Shown here piece after piece: positions 30,085 to 38,773 of a DNA stretch of 38,789 nt (position 1 is the stretch's first letter; each line of letters begins with the position of its first letter). The DNA lies in contig CAMTOO010000010.1 of assembly GCA_947074185.1 (NCBI GenBank), positions 1 to 38,789 of the forward strand, written 5' to 3'. The notes beneath the pieces were generated by a model. The model had not been told where the DNA came from, ran no database searches, and saw only the letters and a list, made by a program, of their open reading frames with translations. This DNA is from an uncultured Negativicutes bacterium (GTDB lineage: Bacteria; Bacillota; Negativicutes; Acidaminococcales; Acidaminococcaceae). A program made the translations under genes and the position numbers.

Positions 30085-31464
30085 ATGTTGTTTTTAAAAT
30101 TGTTACTAGGAATGATAATCCTTATAACTCCGCTTGATGTTTATGCGGCTAAAATTGGCCAAATTAGAACAAGTGATAGCCCGACTCGTATGCGTATAGT
30201 AATGGATGTTGATACTCCAGTAACTATTTCTAAAGAAGCTACAGGTACAGAAATTGATTTAGTAATTGATGCGTCTTTAGCGAAAAATCAATTGGTTAAA
30301 ACAAAAGATGCAGTTATTGGAGACATTAGCCTTAAAAGCGAAAAAAATAAAACTAGATTAAATGTTAAGCTTAAACGAGGACTTCAATATAAAGTGTTTA
30401 CTTTAAAGAGTCCTAATAGAATAGTTGTTGATATTTATCGTATTGTCATAAAGAGAGAAGAACGACAAGAAGGTAAAGGCTTGAAATATACCTTTTGGCA
30501 GGATGATATGAATGGTTTGCCAGTAAAAATGTATATATTAGAAATTGCGACTGATAGTGATTTTATAGTAAAACCTATTTCTGCAGCAGTTAATAGAGTA
30601 GGTAGAGGTAGATTAAGTGCTGCAACAAGTTCTTTAGGAGCAAAAGCAGCAATCAATACATCCTATTTTGGATCAACTGGTTGGGTAATAGGAAATAGCA
30701 AATGGCGTGATATTTGGTTTGGGGTAGAAAAAATCCCGCGTAGTGCATTTGTTTTAGATAAAGGTAAAGCAGAAGTTATAAAAGATTTAGTGTATAACGG
30801 AACGATAACTTTTCCTAATGAAGTAATAGAACCTATTCGCGGTGTAAATAGAGAACGCCTTGCTGAAGATTTAGTTTTATATAACAGACAATATGGTAGT
30901 AATACTAAAACTAATGAGCATGGGCGAGAAGTAAAAGTTGTAAATGGCAAAGTTACTGTTGTATCTACAGCAGGTAATATGGCAATAGATGCTAATAGTC
31001 TTGTACTTTCAGGACATGGGCAAAAAGCTAAAATTTTAGAGTTTTTAAAAGTAGGAGACAAGGTTGTAATAAATCAAACCTTTAATAATGAAACTGCAGA
31101 TATAGCAGAAGTTGTTGTTGGTGCAGGTCCTTCTCTTTTAACTGATGGAAAAGTTGATGTTCGTAGTACGGCGGAAAAAATAGCGCCAGATATTGCTAGA
31201 GGGCGTGCTCCACGTACAGCTATAGGAATAAAAAAAGATGGTACATTAATCTTTTTAGTAGTTGATGGAAGACAAACAGGTTCTTCTGGAATGACTTTGG
31301 CAGAACTAGCTGGTTACTTCCAAAAATTAGGTGCAGTACAAGCTTTGAATTTTGATGGCGGTGGTTCCTCGTCTATGGTTTTAAATGGCCGTGTTGTTAA
31401 TAGGCCATCAGATGGTGCAGAGCGTTCTGTTAGTATGGGCTTAGGTATTTTTAAGAAAAACTAA
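30085..31464 (+). CDS. Secreted AMIN-like and phosphodiester glycosidase (NAGPA) domain protein
   Basis: A 459-residue exported protein. A signal peptide (about residues 1-21, ending DVYA) is followed by an AMIN-like beta domain (about 25-125: RIVMDVDTPVTI, SPNRIVVDIYR), which in other envelope enzymes binds peptidoglycan. A NAGPA domain covers about 155-459, recognised by AINTSYFG, APRTAIGIKKDGTLIFLVVDGR and NFDGGGSSSMVLNGRVVNRP near the end. It probably cleaves or modifies a sugar phosphodiester in the envelope; the substrate is unknown. TTGGAGGA precedes the start. Directly downstream of mreB. Confidence 0.88.
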   Translation: MLFLKLLLGMIILITPLDVYAAKIGQIRTSDSPTRMRIVMDVDTPVTISKEATGTEIDLVIDASLAKNQLVKTKDAVIGDISLKSEKNKTRLNVKLKRGLQYKVFTLKSPNRIVVDIYRIVIKREERQEGKGLKYTFWQDDMNGLPVKMYILEIATDSDFIVKPISAAVNRVGRGRLSAATSSLGAKAAINTSYFGSTGWVIGNSKWRDIWFGVEKIPRSAFVLDKGKAEVIKDLVYNGTITFPNEVIEPIRGVNRERLAEDLVLYNRQYGSNTKTNEHGREVKVVNGKVTVVSTAGNMAIDANSLVLSGHGQKAKILEFLKVGDKVVINQTFNNETADIAEVVVGAGPSLLTDGKVDVRSTAEKIAPDIARGRAPRTAIGIKKDGTLIFLVVDGRQTGSSGMTLAELAGYFQKLGAVQALNFDGGGSSSMVLNGRVVNRPSDGAERSVSMGLGIFKKN

Positions 31465-31535: not shown

Positions 31536-31850
31536 ATGAAAAAAATTAATTGGAAAATAATAACTCTTGTTGTAGTAGCTTTACTTGCTTTTGGAACGTA
31601 TAGCTTAGTATTTGCAGATACGGTAGTTCCACAAAAGAGTGCACTAAATGGCACGGTAGTAGCTGCTGGATTAGCACAAGTTGGTCAAACAGTGAAAGAA
31701 GGTCAAGTGTTAGTTAATATTAAAGGTATTGCAGGGAACACACCTGCAGCTAGAGCAAACATAGCTGGTAAAGTAACGGCTGTTTTAGTTGGTCCAGGAC
31801 AAAGTGTTTCTAGTGGTCAAACAGTAGTAGAGCTTAGTTCATTTAAATAG
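31536..31850 (+). CDS. Secreted biotinyl/lipoyl-like single-domain protein
   Basis: A 104-residue exported protein. A signal peptide or N-terminal anchor (residues about 8-27, ending LVFA) precedes a single barrel-sandwich domain of the biotinyl/lipoyl fold: VGQTVKEGQVLVNI, then GKVTAVLVGPGQSVSSGQTVVEL. The hairpin that carries the modified lysine in carrier proteins (usually AMKM) reads KGIAGN here, so attachment of biotin or lipoate is unlikely. It resembles the lipoyl half of periplasmic adaptor proteins without the coiled coil. It has its own strong promoter and terminator. Role unknown; lying near tolC and mla genes, an envelope adaptor role is a guess. Confidence 0.82.
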   Translation: MKKINWKIITLVVVALLAFGTYSLVFADTVVPQKSALNGTVVAAGLAQVGQTVKEGQVLVNIKGIAGNTPAARANIAGKVTAVLVGPGQSVSSGQTVVELSSFK

Positions 31851-31854
31851 CAAT

Positions 31855-31886
31855 AAAACCGGCGTATATACATGTACGCCGGTTTT
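31855..31886 (+). terminator. Intrinsic terminator after the lipoyl-like gene
   Basis: A perfect 12-bp stem (31855-31866 with 31875-31886), an eight-base loop and four Ts at the end of the stem. It lies 26 bases before the S55 peptidase start, so that gene depends on read-through or a promoter not recognised here. Confidence 0.88.
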
Positions 31887-31911: not shown

Positions 31912-33597
31912 ATGATAAAAATAGTTACTCTTTTATGTAGTTTAATAATATTATTTAGTGGTACTGCATTTGCTAATGTGCCTATTATTCCTGTATCAGA
32001 ATTACAACAAGGAATGAGAGGTTATGCTAAAACTGTTATTAGAGGTGACACTATAGAAACCTTTGATGTTGAAGTTTTAGGTGTTACTGGTAGCGAAGCT
32101 GGTGGATATCAAATTCTCATAAAAGCTTCGGGTGACCTTGTGGAACGTAGTGGCGGTATTGCGCAAGGTATGAGTGGTAGCCCTGTTTACATAAACGGGC
32201 GTTTAGCGGGAGCAGTAGCATTTGGTAAAGTTTTTTCTGATCCAAGATATTGTTTTTTAACACCGATTGAAAGTATGTTTAACTTGCTTGATGAACCAGT
32301 TAAACGCTATCAAGGGTTGATTCCAAAAGGAACTGCTCTCATGGCTAGTGGTTTTTCTGATAGCGGATTTGAATATTTAGGTGAAAAATTACAAGATTAT
32401 AATCTAACTTTGTCTAACGTTGGCGGCACTGGTGGCATACAATCGCAAAAGCCATTAGAGCCAGGTAGTGCAGTGGGCATTTCTGTTGTAACAGGAGATA
32501 TTACTGTTGGTGCATTAGGAACGGTAACTTGGACTGATGATGCAGGAAATGTATTAGCCTTTGGACATCCATTTATGCAACGTGGTAATTCAAAGTTCTT
32601 TATGAATAAAGCATGGGTTTTAGCATCTATACCTAATTATCAAACTGCTTATAAAGTAGGTAATATAGGTGATGTTGTAGGCACCTTTAATCAAGATCGT
32701 AGCGCAGGGGTGGGCGGATTAGTTGGCGCACCACCAGCTTCTGTACCTTTATATGTTTCAGTTTCAGATGAATCTAGAGCAGTTAATGGTAGCTTGCGTG
32801 TAAGAGTAACAGATGATGAGCAATTATTGCCAGCATTAGTTGATTCTGTTGTAATGAATGCGGTAACCAAAGTGATGGATCGCAATGGTGGTGGCACCGC
32901 GAAAGTAACTTTTGCTATTGACGCCTTAGCAGGGGATGATGAGCAAATTAAAATTTATCGTGAAAATATGTATTATGCTGCAAATGGAGTTGCAAGGCTT
33001 ATTACGCCTGAGTTATCAGAAACAGCAACTACCTTAATGCGTAATAAATTTAAAGATGTAAACATCCAAAATATTAATGTTAATGTTGATGTTGATGAAC
33101 AAGTACGTGTTGCTGAAATTGTGAGAGCCTCTATTCGTAAGGATGTTTTCGAAAGAGGTCAAACAGTTAATTTTGATGTGGTTTTAAAACCTTATAGAGA
33201 AGAAGAAATCAATGTGAGAGTTCCATATACTATTCCGCAAGATGCGCCAGGAACATTAAATTTATCGATTAGGGGCGGGGCATCTCTAAACTGGATTCAA
33301 GAACTTTTACGTAAACAAAAAGAAGATGATTTACCTTCTGCTAAAAAAAATGATAACCAAAAAACTTTAGTAGATTTTGTAAAAACTATAAATAATGCAG
33401 ATAGAAATAATGAAATTATTATTGACACTGCACCGAAAAATGAAAAAAGAATTACTGCAGTGGCATTTCGTGAAGAAAGTGATATGCCGGCACCAAGCTT
33501 GAGTAGTCTATCTGAAGGTTCTAAGAACAAACAAAAAATGACAGTTGATTATATCGTTGATGGTGAAGTTTCAATGACATTAAAAGTAGGGAAATAG
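31912..33597 (+). CDS. SpoIVB-type (peptidase S55) envelope protein with reversed catalytic-motif order
   Basis: A 561-residue exported protein with a signal peptide ending TAFA at about residue 21. Residues about 51-125 match the C-terminal half of the SpoIVB protease: FDVEVLGVTG, then GGIAQGMSGSPVYINGRLAG with candidate serine S88, and TPIESMF. Residues about 190-230 match its N-terminal half: DITVGALGTVTW and NVLAFGHPFMQRG with candidate histidine H219. In SpoIVB the histidine precedes the serine, so the order is permuted. The remaining 330 residues are beta-rich and unassigned, with no recognisable PDZ domain. AGGAGA precedes the start. It lies upstream of mlaE; an envelope processing role is inferred. 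Confidence 0.85.
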   Translation: MIKIVTLLCSLIILFSGTAFANVPIIPVSELQQGMRGYAKTVIRGDTIETFDVEVLGVTGSEAGGYQILIKASGDLVERSGGIAQGMSGSPVYINGRLAGAVAFGKVFSDPRYCFLTPIESMFNLLDEPVKRYQGLIPKGTALMASGFSDSGFEYLGEKLQDYNLTLSNVGGTGGIQSQKPLEPGSAVGISVVTGDITVGALGTVTWTDDAGNVLAFGHPFMQRGNSKFFMNKAWVLASIPNYQTAYKVGNIGDVVGTFNQDRSAGVGGLVGAPPASVPLYVSVSDESRAVNGSLRVRVTDDEQLLPALVDSVVMNAVTKVMDRNGGGTAKVTFAIDALAGDDEQIKIYRENMYYAANGVARLITPELSETATTLMRNKFKDVNIQNINVNVDVDEQVRVAEIVRASIRKDVFERGQTVNFDVVLKPYREEEINVRVPYTIPQDAPGTLNLSIRGGASLNWIQELLRKQKEDDLPSAKKNDNQKTLVDFVKTINNADRNNEIIIDTAPKNEKRITAVAFREESDMPAPSLSSLSEGSKNKQKMTVDYIVDGEVSMTLKVGK

Positions 33598-33644
33598 CCA
33601 TAAAATTGTCACAAAATAAGGATATATTAAGAAAGGAGGCCCCC

Positions 33645-34415
33645 ATGGTTGAAAGTGTACTTTTTAATATTGGTAAAGTTGTAATAGAAAAATGTGCGAT
33701 GATTGGTGGGCTAGGCATCCTTTTTAAAGAAACTATTAAACAATTAAAGTTTGTAGATACTAAAGAAACTATTAAGCAGATGGCTTTATTGGGCGCAGAT
33801 TCATTACCGATAGTATTACTAACCATAATGTTTACAGGAATGGTATTTTCTGTGCAAACAGCAAAAGAATTTGTTAGATTTGGCGCCGCTTCATCTGTTG
33901 GTGGCATTGTTGCAATAGCTATGGGCAGAGAATTAGTACCTGTCTTAGTAGGTGTTGTAGTTGCAGGACGCATTGGGGCAGCGATAGCTGCTGAAATTGG
34001 AACCATGAAGGTAACAGAGCAAATAGATGCATTAAAGGTTATGGCTACAGATCCAGTTGCTTTCCTAGTAGTGCCAAGATTCATAGCAGTTGTTCTTATG
34101 ATGCCATTATTAATTGTTTTAGCTAATACCATAGGTAATGCAGGTGGCTGGTTAGTTGCACATTATTATGCAGATATAAGTACTTTTACTTATATTAATT
34201 CCATTAAACTTTTTGTTACTTCTTGGGATTTATTTGGCGGGATGATAAAAGGTGGTATTTTTGGTGGTATAATAGCAGTTGTTGGTTGCTATAAAGGGTT
34301 AAATGCTAAGCTGGGTGCAGAAGGCGTTGGGGTTGCTACAACCAAATCTGTTGTGCTTTCTATTATTTTAATCTTCATATTTAATTATTTGCTTTCAGTA
34401 TTATTATTTGTTTAA
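33645..34415 (+). CDS. mlaE: MlaE-family ABC transporter permease
   Basis: The inner-membrane permease of the MCE/Mla phospholipid transporter. The family core is visible: GMVFSVQTAKEFVRFGA, MGRELVPVLVGVVVAGRIGAAIAAEIGTMKVTEQIDALKVM and ATDPVAFLVVPR, with five or so helices. Length is 256. ATG at 33645 follows a perfect AAGGAGG (33633-33639); an in-frame TTG at 33606 has no ribosome site. First gene of mlaEFD. Confidence 0.95.
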   Translation: MVESVLFNIGKVVIEKCAMIGGLGILFKETIKQLKFVDTKETIKQMALLGADSLPIVLLTIMFTGMVFSVQTAKEFVRFGAASSVGGIVAIAMGRELVPVLVGVVVAGRIGAAIAAEIGTMKVTEQIDALKVMATDPVAFLVVPRFIAVVLMMPLLIVLANTIGNAGGWLVAHYYADISTFTYINSIKLFVTSWDLFGGMIKGGIFGGIIAVVGCYKGLNAKLGAEGVGVATTKSVVLSIILIFIFNYLLSVLLFV

Positions 34416-34434
34416 TAAAAATAGAGGTATTTAC

Positions 34435-35190
34435 GTGATTGAAAATTTAATTTCAGTTAAAAATCTTCATATTGCATTTGGTGATAAAGTCATCCTAAAA
34501 AGCATTGATTTAGATGTTCGCAAAGGGGAAACTTTAGCCATAATAGGCCCATCCGGCTCAGGTAAAAGTACTATTTTAAAAGTATTGATTGGACTTTTAA
34601 AACCGACTTCTGGACAGGTGTTTATTAAAGGTGAAGAAGTTACTGATTTTACTGAAAAGCAATGGAATAATTTGCGAAAGAATATGGGGATGGTATTCCA
34701 GTATTCTGCATTATTTGATTTTTTAGATGTAGGTGAAAATATTGCTTTTGGTTTACGTAAGAATAAGAATCTTACTGAAGAAGAAATCAATAGCAAAGTA
34801 GATAGTTTATTAGATCTAATAGGATTAGAAGATGCTAAAAATTTATACCCTGTTGAGTTATCTGGTGGTATGAAAAAAAGGGTTGGCCTAGCAAGGGCAA
34901 TTGCTGTTGATCCAGAAATTGTTCTTTATGATGAACCAACAGCAGGATTAGATCCTATTAGAACAATGAATATAAGTAAGTTAATGAAAACGACGCAAGA
35001 AAAATTCGGGGTAACATCTTTACTAGTAACACATGATATGGCCTCAACGTTTTACGTTGCAGACAGAATTGCTATGTTACATGAAGGTGAAATTTTATAT
35101 ATTGGAACACCAGAGGAGTTTAAAACAAGCGATAATCCTATTATAAGAGAGTTTATATATGGAGAGTTTGATAGAGGGGGAGGATTATGA
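34435..35190 (+). CDS. mlaF: MlaF-family ABC transporter ATP-binding protein
   Basis: The ATPase of the Mla complex. Walker A is GPSGSGKST (residues 38-46), the signature is LSGGMKKRVGLARA, Walker B is IVLYDEPTAGLDP and the switch histidine is in LLVTHDM. Length is 251. The GTG at 34435 is taken as start because AGAGG at 34423-34427 is seven bases upstream; an earlier TTG overlaps the mlaE stop codon and lacks a site. The stop codon overlaps mlaD by four bases (ATGA). No STAS-domain partner (MlaB) is encoded nearby. Confidence 0.96.
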   Translation: MIENLISVKNLHIAFGDKVILKSIDLDVRKGETLAIIGPSGSGKSTILKVLIGLLKPTSGQVFIKGEEVTDFTEKQWNNLRKNMGMVFQYSALFDFLDVGENIAFGLRKNKNLTEEEINSKVDSLLDLIGLEDAKNLYPVELSGGMKKRVGLARAIAVDPEIVLYDEPTAGLDPIRTMNISKLMKTTQEKFGVTSLLVTHDMASTFYVADRIAMLHEGEILYIGTPEEFKTSDNPIIREFIYGEFDRGGGL

Positions 35191-36461
35191 AAACAGAAGT
35201 TAAAGTTGGAGCAATAACCATAGCTTCCGTAATAGCATTAACTTTAATAATTTCATTTTTGGGTGCGTTTGATTTTTTACGACCTGATTATGAAATAAAT
35301 GTAGCTTACCCCAAAGTAGTTGGGCTTAAAGAAGGTAACTTTGTCCGTTATGCAGGGGTTAATGTTGGTTCTGTAAAAAAAATGAAAATTACACCAAATA
35401 ATGTTCTTGTTACTGTAGGGATAAATAAGGATGTTAAAATACCAACAGGTTCCATTTTTTCTTTAGGCACTGATGGGATATTAGGTGAAAAATTTGTTGA
35501 AATAGAACCTGGTGAAGGTGTTAGTATTGGTTCAAATATTAAGGAAAACACAACAGTGCAAGGAATTCCAGGTAAAGGCATAGACGAATTTATGGAAGCT
35601 TCTACAAAAGTGTTGGCAAAGGTTGAATCAATTGCGGAAGCACTAAATAATGTATTTGGTGATGCAGAAGTGCAAAAGTCTATGCGAGATGGTTTTATAA
35701 ATGCACGTGATATTAGTAATAATTTAAATACGTTCACTAAGATTATGGCAGATATGGCAGCAGCTAATAGTGGTGAAATTCATCAAATGATAACATCTCT
35801 AAATAGTGCTACGGCAAGAATGAATAGTGTTGCTGCAAATCTTGACAACATCTTGGAAGGTGCCGCTGCAGATGGAAAAACAGGAAAAAATGTAGCGATG
35901 ATGGCTGAAAATCTAGCTGTTACTAGTCAACGAATTGAAGCCATGTCAAAAACATTAAGTAATGTAATTAATGATCCAAAAACTGAAGCTGATTTAAAAG
36001 AAACAATTACTAATGCGAGAACCGTATCAGCTAGAGCGAAAAAAATATTAAGCACTTTTGATGATCCAAAATTCACTGTTGATACAGGTAGAAATCTTGG
36101 TGGCAAAAGAGATTGGCGCAGTAATATTGGCGTTACCTTAGAACCAACTGAAACAGGATTTGTTTATATGGGTGTTAACGATATTGGAAATAATACTAAA
36201 TTTGATTTTCAAATAGGCAAAAGATATGATGATTTATCATTGAGTGTTGGTGCAATGCAAGGTGAATTTGGTGTTGGTTTAGATTATAGCTTTGGAGATG
36301 CTGCAAAGCTTTATTCTCAAGCATATGATTTTAACAGCACTAAAATAAAGCTTGGCGGCGAAGTTAGAGTAGCTGATAAAATTTCTGTTTTTGGTGAAAA
36401 TCTTGATATAAGAAACAGTAGGAAAAGCAATACTTATGTAGGCGTTAGAAGTCATTTTTAG
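35187..36461 (+). CDS. mlaD: MlaD-like MCE protein with C-terminal barrel-like region
   Basis: The substrate-binding MCE subunit of the Mla system, 424 residues instead of about 180 in E. coli. A membrane helix (about 8-28) precedes one MCE domain (about 35-108: VVGLKEGNFVRYAGVNVGSV, TDGILGEKFVEIEPG). A long helical segment follows (about 130-292), then a beta-rich stretch (about 305-424) of alternating hydrophobic strands ending in YVGVRSHF. A terminal aromatic residue of this kind is the usual outer-membrane barrel signal. This architecture matches the transenvelope MlaD reported for Veillonella parvula, and would replace MlaC and MlaA, which are absent nearby. Confidence 0.92.
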   Translation: MKTEVKVGAITIASVIALTLIISFLGAFDFLRPDYEINVAYPKVVGLKEGNFVRYAGVNVGSVKKMKITPNNVLVTVGINKDVKIPTGSIFSLGTDGILGEKFVEIEPGEGVSIGSNIKENTTVQGIPGKGIDEFMEASTKVLAKVESIAEALNNVFGDAEVQKSMRDGFINARDISNNLNTFTKIMADMAAANSGEIHQMITSLNSATARMNSVAANLDNILEGAAADGKTGKNVAMMAENLAVTSQRIEAMSKTLSNVINDPKTEADLKETITNARTVSARAKKILSTFDDPKFTVDTGRNLGGKRDWRSNIGVTLEPTETGFVYMGVNDIGNNTKFDFQIGKRYDDLSLSVGAMQGEFGVGLDYSFGDAAKLYSQAYDFNSTKIKLGGEVRVADKISVFGENLDIRNSRKSNTYVGVRSHF

Positions 36462-36547: not shown

Positions 36548-37891
36548 ATGTTAAAGGCTAAAAGAAAGCACTCAGCAATTTTAGGAGTTTTAATGAGCGT
36601 GTGTTGCGCTGCTCCTACTTTTGCAGCAGAGGTTTTCCCTATAGATTTGCAAACAGCTGTAGATATGGCATTTGCATCGAATCCTAATATTAGAATTGCA
36701 GAATATAATTTAAAATCTTCTAAAGCTACTTACAATGCAGCGAGAGAAAGCAGAGGCATAAGTGTTAGCTTGAGCCAACGCACTAGAAGAGGTGGTTATT
36801 ATGATTCAATTGCATGGGCAGCAGCTGGTGGAATAAATAATAGCTATTCTAGCGGAATTACTGCTTCATTACCTATTTTTACAGGTGGTAAATTACAAGG
36901 TAATGTTGATAAAGCAAGAGCCGGTTATGAAATTTCTGCGCTTGGTGAAAGAAAAACTTACAATGACTTGAAAGATGATACTACTGTAGGTTATTACAAT
37001 TTGCTAGCAGCTACGAATGCTCGTGATTTAAGTAGAGATTCAGTAAATCGTTTAGAAGAACATTTGAAAAATGTTCAAGCACAATATGATGTAGGTGTAG
37101 TTGCAAAAGTTGATGTATTGCGTTCTGAAGTTGAACTTACAAATGCACAACAAACATTAATAAAAGCTCAAAACACTGTAGATTTAGCTGAAGCAAATCT
37201 AAATAACATTATTTGTTTGCCTCAAGATACTACTTTACAACCAAAAGAAGAATTAACTTATGAAGCTTATCCAGCAGAACTTAACGATTGCATTGCATAT
37301 GCATTGGAACATAGAACAGATCTACAACAAGTAGAAAAACAAGTAGAAATTGCTAAAGCTAATGTGAAAATTGCAAAAGCTGGACATTTACCACAAGTAG
37401 CAGCAACAGCAGCAAATGCTTGGAGTGATGGGCACTGGCCAGCTGATGATAATCGAAATTGGGTAGTTGGGTTTGATATTACAATGAATGTTTTTGATAC
37501 TGGTGTTACATTATCTCAAATTAATGGCGCAAGAGCTGATTTAAAAGCTGCAGAAGAAACTTACAAACAAGCTCAAGATACAATACAATTAGATGTTCGT
37601 AATAATTACTATAATTTGCGCGAAGCTGAAAAGCGTATTCATACTACTCAAGTAGCGGTAGCAAAAGCTGAAGAAGATTATAGTATTGCAGTAGTTCGTT
37701 ATCAAGCTGGAGTTGGTACTAATACTGATGTTTTAGACGCACAAGTAGCTTTAACGCAAGCGAAAAACAACTTTAACACAGCATTGTATGATTACAATAC
37801 TTCTAAGTCTGGATTAATCACAGCAATGGGTATTGAAGCAAAACCGGAAGTTCCAGTAACAAGACCAGTTATAACTCCAATAGAAGAATAA
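36548..37891 (+). CDS. tolC: TolC-family outer-membrane efflux protein
   Basis: An outer-membrane channel with a long periplasmic helical barrel, used by type I secretion and efflux pumps. A signal peptide ends near APTFAA (about residue 27). Two homologous OEP repeats follow; each has paired long helices (LKSSKATYNAARESRG and VGVVAKVDVLRSEVELTNAQQTLIKA in the first; QVEIAKANVKIAKAG and VGTNTDVLDAQVALTQAKNNF in the second). IFTGGKLQGNVDKARAGYE is a typical strand-helix junction. Length 447 is usual. Strong promoter and terminator make it monocistronic. No pump partner lies in the window. Confidence 0.95.
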   Translation: MLKAKRKHSAILGVLMSVCCAAPTFAAEVFPIDLQTAVDMAFASNPNIRIAEYNLKSSKATYNAARESRGISVSLSQRTRRGGYYDSIAWAAAGGINNSYSSGITASLPIFTGGKLQGNVDKARAGYEISALGERKTYNDLKDDTTVGYYNLLAATNARDLSRDSVNRLEEHLKNVQAQYDVGVVAKVDVLRSEVELTNAQQTLIKAQNTVDLAEANLNNIICLPQDTTLQPKEELTYEAYPAELNDCIAYALEHRTDLQQVEKQVEIAKANVKIAKAGHLPQVAATAANAWSDGHWPADDNRNWVVGFDITMNVFDTGVTLSQINGARADLKAAEETYKQAQDTIQLDVRNNYYNLREAEKRIHTTQVAVAKAEEDYSIAVVRYQAGVGTNTDVLDAQVALTQAKNNFNTALYDYNTSKSGLITAMGIEAKPEVPVTRPVITPIEE

Positions 37892-38011: not shown

Positions 38012-38773
38012 ATGAAACAATTATGGGTGCGGGCATTCGCTATAATAACAGCAATTGTTGTTGTTGGCTATGTTGCTGCCAGAATGGTTGTTCCTCAACA
38101 CTTAAAAGAAACTATTCCACAAATAGAACAAATAGCTACGGAGTATATTAATGGTAGTGTTTCTATTGAGGATTTAAAGTGGAATGGTGGTTTAGGTATT
38201 GTTGCTAAAAATGTAAATATAGAAAATATTCACAAGGAAAAGGTTCTGTTTGCGCCAGAAGCTTTTGTGAGAGTAAACCTTCTTGAAGGTGTTTTTAACT
38301 TTGAAAAAATCATTGATGAAGTTGTAATAAAAAATCCTGTGGTTTATCTTGATCAAAACGCAAAAGGTGAATGGAATTTAAGTGATATAATTAAACCTTC
38401 TGATTCTGATGAAATACCGTTCTATGGAAAAGTATTAATTGAAAAGGGCGTCTTAGATCTCGGCGTTCCTGATGCAGAATGGGAACTAAAAGTAACTGGA
38501 ACAATAGATGCTAAAAATAACCCGAATTTCAATACTAATATTTTGGTTGAGAATGGGCCTGATCAATTAAGTGTAAAAGGTATGGTTACAGAAAAATTAG
38601 TAGGTGAATTAAACTTTTTTTCAGACTCTCTACGTGTAGGGAACTATTCCTATTGGATTAAACATTATGGGAAAATTAGAGATAGTGATGGTGAAATCCA
38701 CAAGTTAGATTTACAATGGTTTAGTGATGGAAAAGAAATTAAGTGTTTAGCAGTGGGAAATTTATCAGAATGA
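38012..38773 (+). CDS. AsmA/TamB N-terminal-like membrane-anchored protein
   Basis: A 253-residue protein with one N-terminal membrane helix (about residues 7-27) and the rest outside the cytoplasm. The pattern of short beta repeats (GSVSIEDLKWNGGLGIVAKNVNIEN, FAPEAFVRVNLLEG, VVIKNPVVYLDQNAKGEWNLSDI) is that of the start of AsmA-like/TamB proteins, which form lipid-conducting beta grooves between the two membranes. It ends with TGA at a length well below full TamB (about 1,000 residues or more). TTGGAGGCC precedes the ATG. Position next to mla and tolC supports an envelope role. Assignment by pattern only. Confidence 0.72.
   Translation: MKQLWVRAFAIITAIVVVGYVAARMVVPQHLKETIPQIEQIATEYINGSVSIEDLKWNGGLGIVAKNVNIENIHKEKVLFAPEAFVRVNLLEGVFNFEKIIDEVVIKNPVVYLDQNAKGEWNLSDIIKPSDSDEIPFYGKVLIEKGVLDLGVPDAEWELKVTGTIDAKNNPNFNTNILVENGPDQLSVKGMVTEKLVGELNFFSDSLRVGNYSYWIKHYGKIRDSDGEIHKLDLQWFSDGKEIKCLAVGNLSE

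Follow-up and report, generated by a model that had tools for sequence, protein, structure and literature searches.

The window, the whole 38,789-nucleotide stretch of DNA analyzed here, carries on its forward strand a gene for a predicted S55-type serine protease (31912-33597), read as a single unbroken ORF of 561 translated codons with an ATG start, opposite which stop codons occur throughout. We refer to this gene and its relatives as Ser-first, after the order of the serine and histidine motifs, and its product is predicted from the encoded sequence to be secreted or periplasmic. The flanking features are collected in Table 1. An NAGPA gene lies beside the Ser-first gene in 25 of the 30 loci compared, window included, and the intervening small gene, whose product shows a lone biotin/lipoyl-like half motif, occurs at the same place in 16 of 30. 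Between this small gene and the protease gene sits an inverted repeat whose terminator-like sequence suggests that the protease gene is the start of the mla transcription unit. Because this hairpin precedes the gene and mlaE begins 8 bases past it, co-transcription with mlaEFD is likely; mlaE is downstream in 28 of the 30 loci, again counting the window. The mlaE, mlaF-like, mlaD and tolC-like genes that follow agree with the claim of the original prediction that the gene belongs to an outer-membrane gene block and not to a sporulation locus. The AsmA/TamB-type ORF at the far end encodes 253 amino acids and stops 16 bases short of the contig end. Proteins of this type are normally much longer, and given its unusual shortness the ORF represents either a gene that is truncated or frameshifted or an artefact of the assembly end.

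Table 1. Features of the protease locus, with positions in the window
Feature	Position	Strand	Basis
AMIN and phosphodiester glycosidase (NAGPA) protein, upstream neighbor	30085..31464	+	family match
Small secreted biotin/lipoyl-like protein, 104 aa, upstream neighbor	31536..31850	+	ORF and family match
Inverted repeat AAAACCGGCGTA...TACGCCGGTTTT, terminator-like, T-ended	31855..31886	+	sequence; function inferred
Ser-first (permuted) S55-type serine protease, predicted, 561 aa	31912..33597	+	Vpar_0521 orthologue group
Signal peptide, residues 1-21, MIKIVTLLCSLIILFSGTAFA	31912..31974	+	sequence; predicted helix 2-15; cleavage site inferred
Ser barrel, residues 22-129; counterpart of the PA-clan protease C-terminal barrel and of SpoIVB 311-423	31975..32298	+	profile and structure alignment
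S88, GMSGSP nucleophile (predicted)	32173..32175	+	alignment
Variable beta-alpha-beta insert and linker, residues 130-180, joining the two barrels	32299..32451	+	model; relatives
His barrel, residues 183-303, equivalent to SpoIVB ~108-301	32458..32820	+	profile and structure alignment
H219, general base (predicted), AFGHPF	32566..32568	+	alignment
D262 (QDR), proposed third triad residue, H219 +43	32695..32697	+	alignment
C-terminal region, residues 304-561, without family match	32821..33594	+	model and Pfam
mlaE	33606..34415	+	family match
mlaF-like ABC ATPase	34408..35190	+	family match
mlaD (MCE domain protein)	35187..36461	+	family match; PMC10665443
tolC-like outer membrane efflux protein	36548..37891	+	family match
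AsmA/TamB-type protein, N-terminal part only	38012..38773	+	DUF748, YhdP, both below cut-off

That the serine motif precedes the histidine motif, as first noticed from the letters, holds within the one ORF, where S88 of GMSGSP (in the context GMSGSPVYINGRLAG) is followed 131 residues later by H219 of AFGHPF (in NVLAFGHPFMQRG). The flanks are swapped along with the motifs, also as claimed: TVIxGDxIExFDVEVLGV and LTPIESM surround the serine as in the C-terminal half of SpoIVB, and GALGTVTW stands ahead of the histidine, to be compared with GVGTLTF...GALGH in SpoIVB. Pfam PF05580 (Peptidase_S55) matches residues 25-122 over its cut-off (E 9.5e-14) through the C-terminal half of the model alone (112-209 of 210), and the match to the SpoIVB equivalog TIGR02860 (NCBIfam) scores 45 bits, far short of its cut-off of 305. 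Pfam returned no family for the His-barrel fragment alone or for the C-terminal part alone, and no PDZ match anywhere in the protein up to E 10, in keeping with the predicted lack of a recognized PDZ domain. The ~330 unassigned residues first estimated have to be corrected to ~258, because the His barrel extends to about residue 303. In the predicted structure this C-terminal region comprises helix and beta-hairpins, with a beta-sandwich-like part at ~396-458 and a disordered stretch at 514-531; the insert and linker at 130-180 are longer and of low complexity in many relatives.

The gene is present in 57 of 61 related genomes, and the serine comes first in all 52 Negativicutes orthologues collected, with the histidine ~130-240 residues further on. 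Ordinary SpoIVB copies from genomes of the same class have the histidine first (12/12), in agreement with the order that the original prediction had ascribed to Bacillus SpoIVB; motif order does not vary by chance. Since these 12 Negativicutes genomes carry an ordinary SpoIVB besides the Ser-first gene, the two forms coexist in the class. The rest of the window's own genome gave no second S55 match, and thus contains no ordinary SpoIVB.

The reading of this order as a circular permutation is supported by deep profiles, which match both halves in swapped order and were run with controls. When 102 Ser-first proteins were compared profile against profile (hhalign) with 52 SpoIVB sequences from across Bacillota, the Ser half (residues 28-124) matched the SpoIVB Ser half with E 8e-21, and the His half (residues 198-264) matched the SpoIVB His half with a score of 40.1 (E 2.8e-5, probability 74%), pairing His with His and GTVTW with GTLTF. 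Column-shuffled controls for the His half (n=60) scored 14.9 on average (sd 3.1, maximum 27.8) and the reversed control 14.4, which excludes chance for this match. With the SpoIVB halves written in swapped order, a single collinear alignment ran across 28-264. The His half went undetected in an initial profile test limited to 12 close SpoIVB sequences, and searching PDB sequences with the His-barrel profile returned chance-level matches only (citrate synthase and others). The score was no higher when SpoIVB strand 1 was included in the His-half profile, so the equivalence of strand 1 depends on the structure alignment and on the conserved spacing of the glycines.

An AlphaFold2 model of the protein built from 94 sequences reached pLDDT 89.9 and pTM 0.88, and a separate model of residues 180-303 reached pLDDT 96.4. 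For neither model did Foldseek alone return a PDB match with E below 0.001, and SpoIVB surfaced only after realignment to PDB chains. Over 96-106 residues the Ser barrel (22-129) aligned with Z scores of up to 8.4, the matches being the C-terminal barrels of Deg9 (218-322, Z 8.4), DegP (150-255, Z 7.9) and DegS, and SpoIVB 311-423 (PDB 9lnf; Z 7.4, 106 aligned, 29% identity). In the fragment model, residues 183-273 correspond to the preceding part of SpoIVB, 108-301, weakly (Z 4.4, 86 aligned, 17% identity), so that the structural comparison proposed at the outset favors the permuted reading. SpoIVB residue 108 is the proline of PGGQSIGV, immediately ahead of the SpoIVB PDZ domain; the range 108-301 takes in strand 1, the PDZ domain and the remainder of the barrel, and is therefore consistent with insertion of a PDZ domain within the His barrel. 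The SpoIVB crystal paper describes a PDZ strand within the protease core (PMC12502668). The top matches of the His fragment were PA-protease barrels (Z 4-7; SplA 6.9, DegS 6.2, V8 5.5), yet mostly the C-terminal barrels of other PA proteases, which is expected if the two PA barrels are alike and is not unique proof.

Residue conservation also supports the permuted reading. In an alignment of 111 Ser-first and 52 SpoIVB sequences, Ser at the S88 column and His at the H219 column are present throughout. At the D262 column, Asp occupies 111/111 Ser-first sequences and Asn 51/52 SpoIVB sequences. Distant relatives from other phyla were gathered by a DNA pattern that fixes the serine motif only; among the matches listed, H219 and D262 are invariant in the 101 long enough to align, and K248 is conserved in 99%. 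The spacing from H219 to D262 is 43 in 100 of 102 sequences, and the His57-Asp102 spacing of chymotrypsin is close to this value. The Ser-first family and SpoIVB have in common the pattern G-x4-(D/N)-x3-G-(I/V)-x-G, and the structure alignment, which ends at 273/301, gives the same offset between D262 and Asn290 if ungapped there; because the hhalign local path takes a register for D262 that differs from the glycine-anchored one, D262 is the likely, not the proven, equivalent of SpoIVB Asn290. The triad is most likely S88-H219-D262. In the SpoIVB crystal structure Asp363 lies ~24 Å from His236 and Thr393 was proposed instead (PMC12502668). Thr393 is invariant in SpoIVB; its counterpart is Ala103 in the window protein, and the relatives shown have Ala or Ser there in most cases. 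The near-invariant Asn290 of SpoIVB at the D262 column may explain the odd catalytic triad of that crystal structure, and the Ser-first family, if correctly read, makes a direct prediction for SpoIVB: Asn290 holds the position of the triad Asp.

We propose that the gene product is a periplasmic serine protease with a circularly permuted chymotrypsin fold and the triad S88-H219-D262, serving outer-membrane upkeep, and we hold this explanation with good confidence. A permuted two-barrel PA fold is its firmest part and very probable; that the protein is an active protease is likely; a role in outer-membrane upkeep is reasonably probable. The analysis shows the gene itself, its motif order, the homology of its two halves, the conservation of the three residues and the link to Omp85; catalysis, the geometry of the triad, the substrate and the role are predictions. 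After secretion to the periplasm, the mature protein would consist of the Ser barrel (22-129), the insert (130-180), the His/Asp barrel (183-303) and the extra C-terminal region, and its two barrels should pack against each other as they do in other PA proteases, bringing S88, H219 and D262 together in one triad. SpoIVB would be built from these two barrels in His-Ser order, its PDZ domain following the first His-barrel strand and Asn replacing D262. The strongest competing explanation, itself unlikely, accepts the permuted fold and holds that it is catalytically dead or acts mainly as a chaperone or scaffold, its barrels kept for binding and not for cleavage: the large C-terminal region could then be the working part, and the authors who studied Veillonella parvula considered a chaperone-like role for the C-terminus of its Vpar_0521 protein (PMC5491611). 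Invariance of Ser, His and Asp across at least a dozen phyla would be unusual for a scaffold, however, and even a GFSGSP variant (L044) keeps the serine. Less probable again is an active site formed between two chains, in which the Ser and His barrels of each chain serve different sites and the order within a chain is irrelevant; the ~50-residue linker, variable and in some relatives long and of low complexity, would tolerate such swapping, but the model, built from one chain, is of high confidence (pTM 0.88). Least probable is that homology to SpoIVB is limited to the Ser half and the GHPF region is an unrelated beta-domain with a chance or convergent histidine, since, although Pfam and NCBIfam find the Ser half alone with confidence (ten representatives included) and the hhalign probability for the His half is not near 100, the shuffle control rules out chance in the profile match, the His, the GT(V/L)T(W/F) strand and the glycine pattern all correspond, and PA-protease barrels head the modeled fragment's structural matches.

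The permuted protease that we favor can be set against three groups of known proteins. With SpoIVB (MEROPS S55, B. subtilis, PDB 9lnf, PF05580, TIGR02860) it shares both barrels, the GMSGSP serine, the GH histidine, the GTxTF/W strand ahead of the histidine and a compartment between two membranes. SpoIVB differs in its barrel order (His-Ser), in the PDZ domain after His-barrel strand 1, which it alone has, in the Asn at the D262 column and the invariant T393 (Ala/Ser in Ser-first), in lacking the C-terminal region, and in being a sporulation gene, whereas the Ser-first gene lies in an outer-membrane gene block. The HtrA/Deg proteins (DegP, DegS, Deg9), periplasmic envelope quality-control proteases with a PA-clan Ser barrel, provide the best structural matches, but have the order His-Asp-Ser and PDZ domains and lack a GMSGSP-type sequence; the window protein gave no sequence match to them, and a PA protease with PDZ in His-Asp-Ser order was not found in it. 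The uncharacterized 'S55 domain' proteins of Acidobacteriota, Gemmatimonadota, Latescibacterota and others, ~600 aa and apparently secreted, have the same two barrels, Ser first, with S88, H219 and D262 invariant, and differ in their neighbors, a beta-propeller protein following in several phyla. Our literature search, whose coverage excluded most subscription journals, found no report of a permutation of SpoIVB or of the chymotrypsin fold. If the proposal is true, it describes a natural and widespread circular permutation of the chymotrypsin fold that has stayed hidden because domain models recognize only half of it.

By domain content and synteny, the window gene is judged orthologous to Vpar_0521 (COG3064), which was found in all three outer-membrane/surface preparations of V. 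parvula and described as an outer-membrane-fraction protein that is conserved in diderm Firmicutes and bears a 'SpoIVB' domain at its N-terminus (PMC5491611). Just half of the protease domain was recognized in that work, which mentions neither the His barrel nor a permutation, and the neighboring Vpar_0519 was assigned to DUF2233 (NAGPA) (PMC5491611). The study of the mlaEFD-tolC-tamB operon does not mention the protease or SpoIVB (PMC10665443). A conserved unknown of the diderm-Firmicute outer-membrane cluster would, on our proposal, become a testable enzyme with three named residues.

Co-occurrence with mlaEFD across diderm Firmicutes, the link suggested in the original prediction, was found in part. 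We scored 149 Bacillota genomes, drawn evenly, for the Ser-first gene, Omp85 and MlaD. All 8 genomes with MlaD have the Ser-first gene, but MlaD occurs in just 8/149, and it is Omp85 that the gene tracks: both were found in 34 genomes, Ser-first only in 2, Omp85 only in 2 and neither in 111 (Fisher p ~1e-28, related genomes being counted as independent). Co-occurrence with mlaEFD was accordingly rejected as the functional link in favor of Omp85, MlaD's 8/149 comparing with the match to Omp85 in 34. In 27 of those 34 genomes Omp85 lies on the same contig, 2.6-13.9 kb from the Ser-first gene. The discordant genomes are G160 and G194 (Ser-first without Omp85) and G091 and G132 (Omp85 without Ser-first); the latter two belong to the same family and are both incomplete. 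Neighbors in other diderm Bacillota include NAGPA (L136, L166, L203), AsmA-like (L181) and Omp85/POTRA (L203) genes, so that outside Negativicutes the synteny is with BamA, AsmA-like and NAGPA genes. Because it is widespread in bacteria with an outer membrane and adjoins outer-membrane genes, the protein is probably an overlooked enzyme of outer-membrane upkeep. It would belong to the core envelope machinery of diderm Bacillota, acting in quality control or regulation much as DegP/DegS do, and its substrate would probably be an envelope protein tied to outer-membrane assembly or upkeep (the BamA/TamB/Mla neighborhood).

The DNA pattern scan recovered at least 119 Ser-first loci. Among the matches listed, most are from Acidobacteriota, and the others include Gemmatimonadota, Latescibacterota, Aminicenantes, KSB1, WOR-3, Krumholzibacteria, Poribacteria, Eisenbacteria, Armatimonadetes, Spirochaetes, Myxococcales, diderm Bacillota and Negativicutes. 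S55 matches, all to the Ser half only, were found in 14 of the 15 non-Bacillota genomes checked, and three Bacillota among the genomes checked carry both forms; searches of plasmids and of viral contigs found no relatives. In this non-exhaustive sample the His-first order was seen only as the SpoIVB of Bacillota. The description of the order as reversed is thus apt relative to SpoIVB, but Ser-first is the common order among the diderm bacteria sampled, and since it is widespread in diderm phyla and the SpoIVB order is confined to Bacillota in the sample, the word may point in the wrong direction. In a tree built from both halves, SpoIVB forms a single long branch, and neither order emerges as the older. 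We tentatively suggest, at somewhat less than even confidence, that the Ser-first enzyme is an old diderm envelope protease and SpoIVB its permuted descendant, which gained a PDZ domain, exchanged Asp for Asn and was recruited between the spore membranes. If so, the signaling protease of sporulation would be a remnant of the outer-membrane maintenance of a diderm Bacillota ancestor, and outer-membrane biology and endospore signaling, whose connection is a long-standing open question, would gain a concrete link.

Directly downstream of several Ser-first genes lies a further large ORF. At L115 and L172 this neighbor is of similar size without a propeller match, and at L133, L147, L152 and L159 it encodes a beta-propeller (Reg_prop/SGL) protein of 700-770 aa, possibly a partner or substrate of the Ser-first protease.
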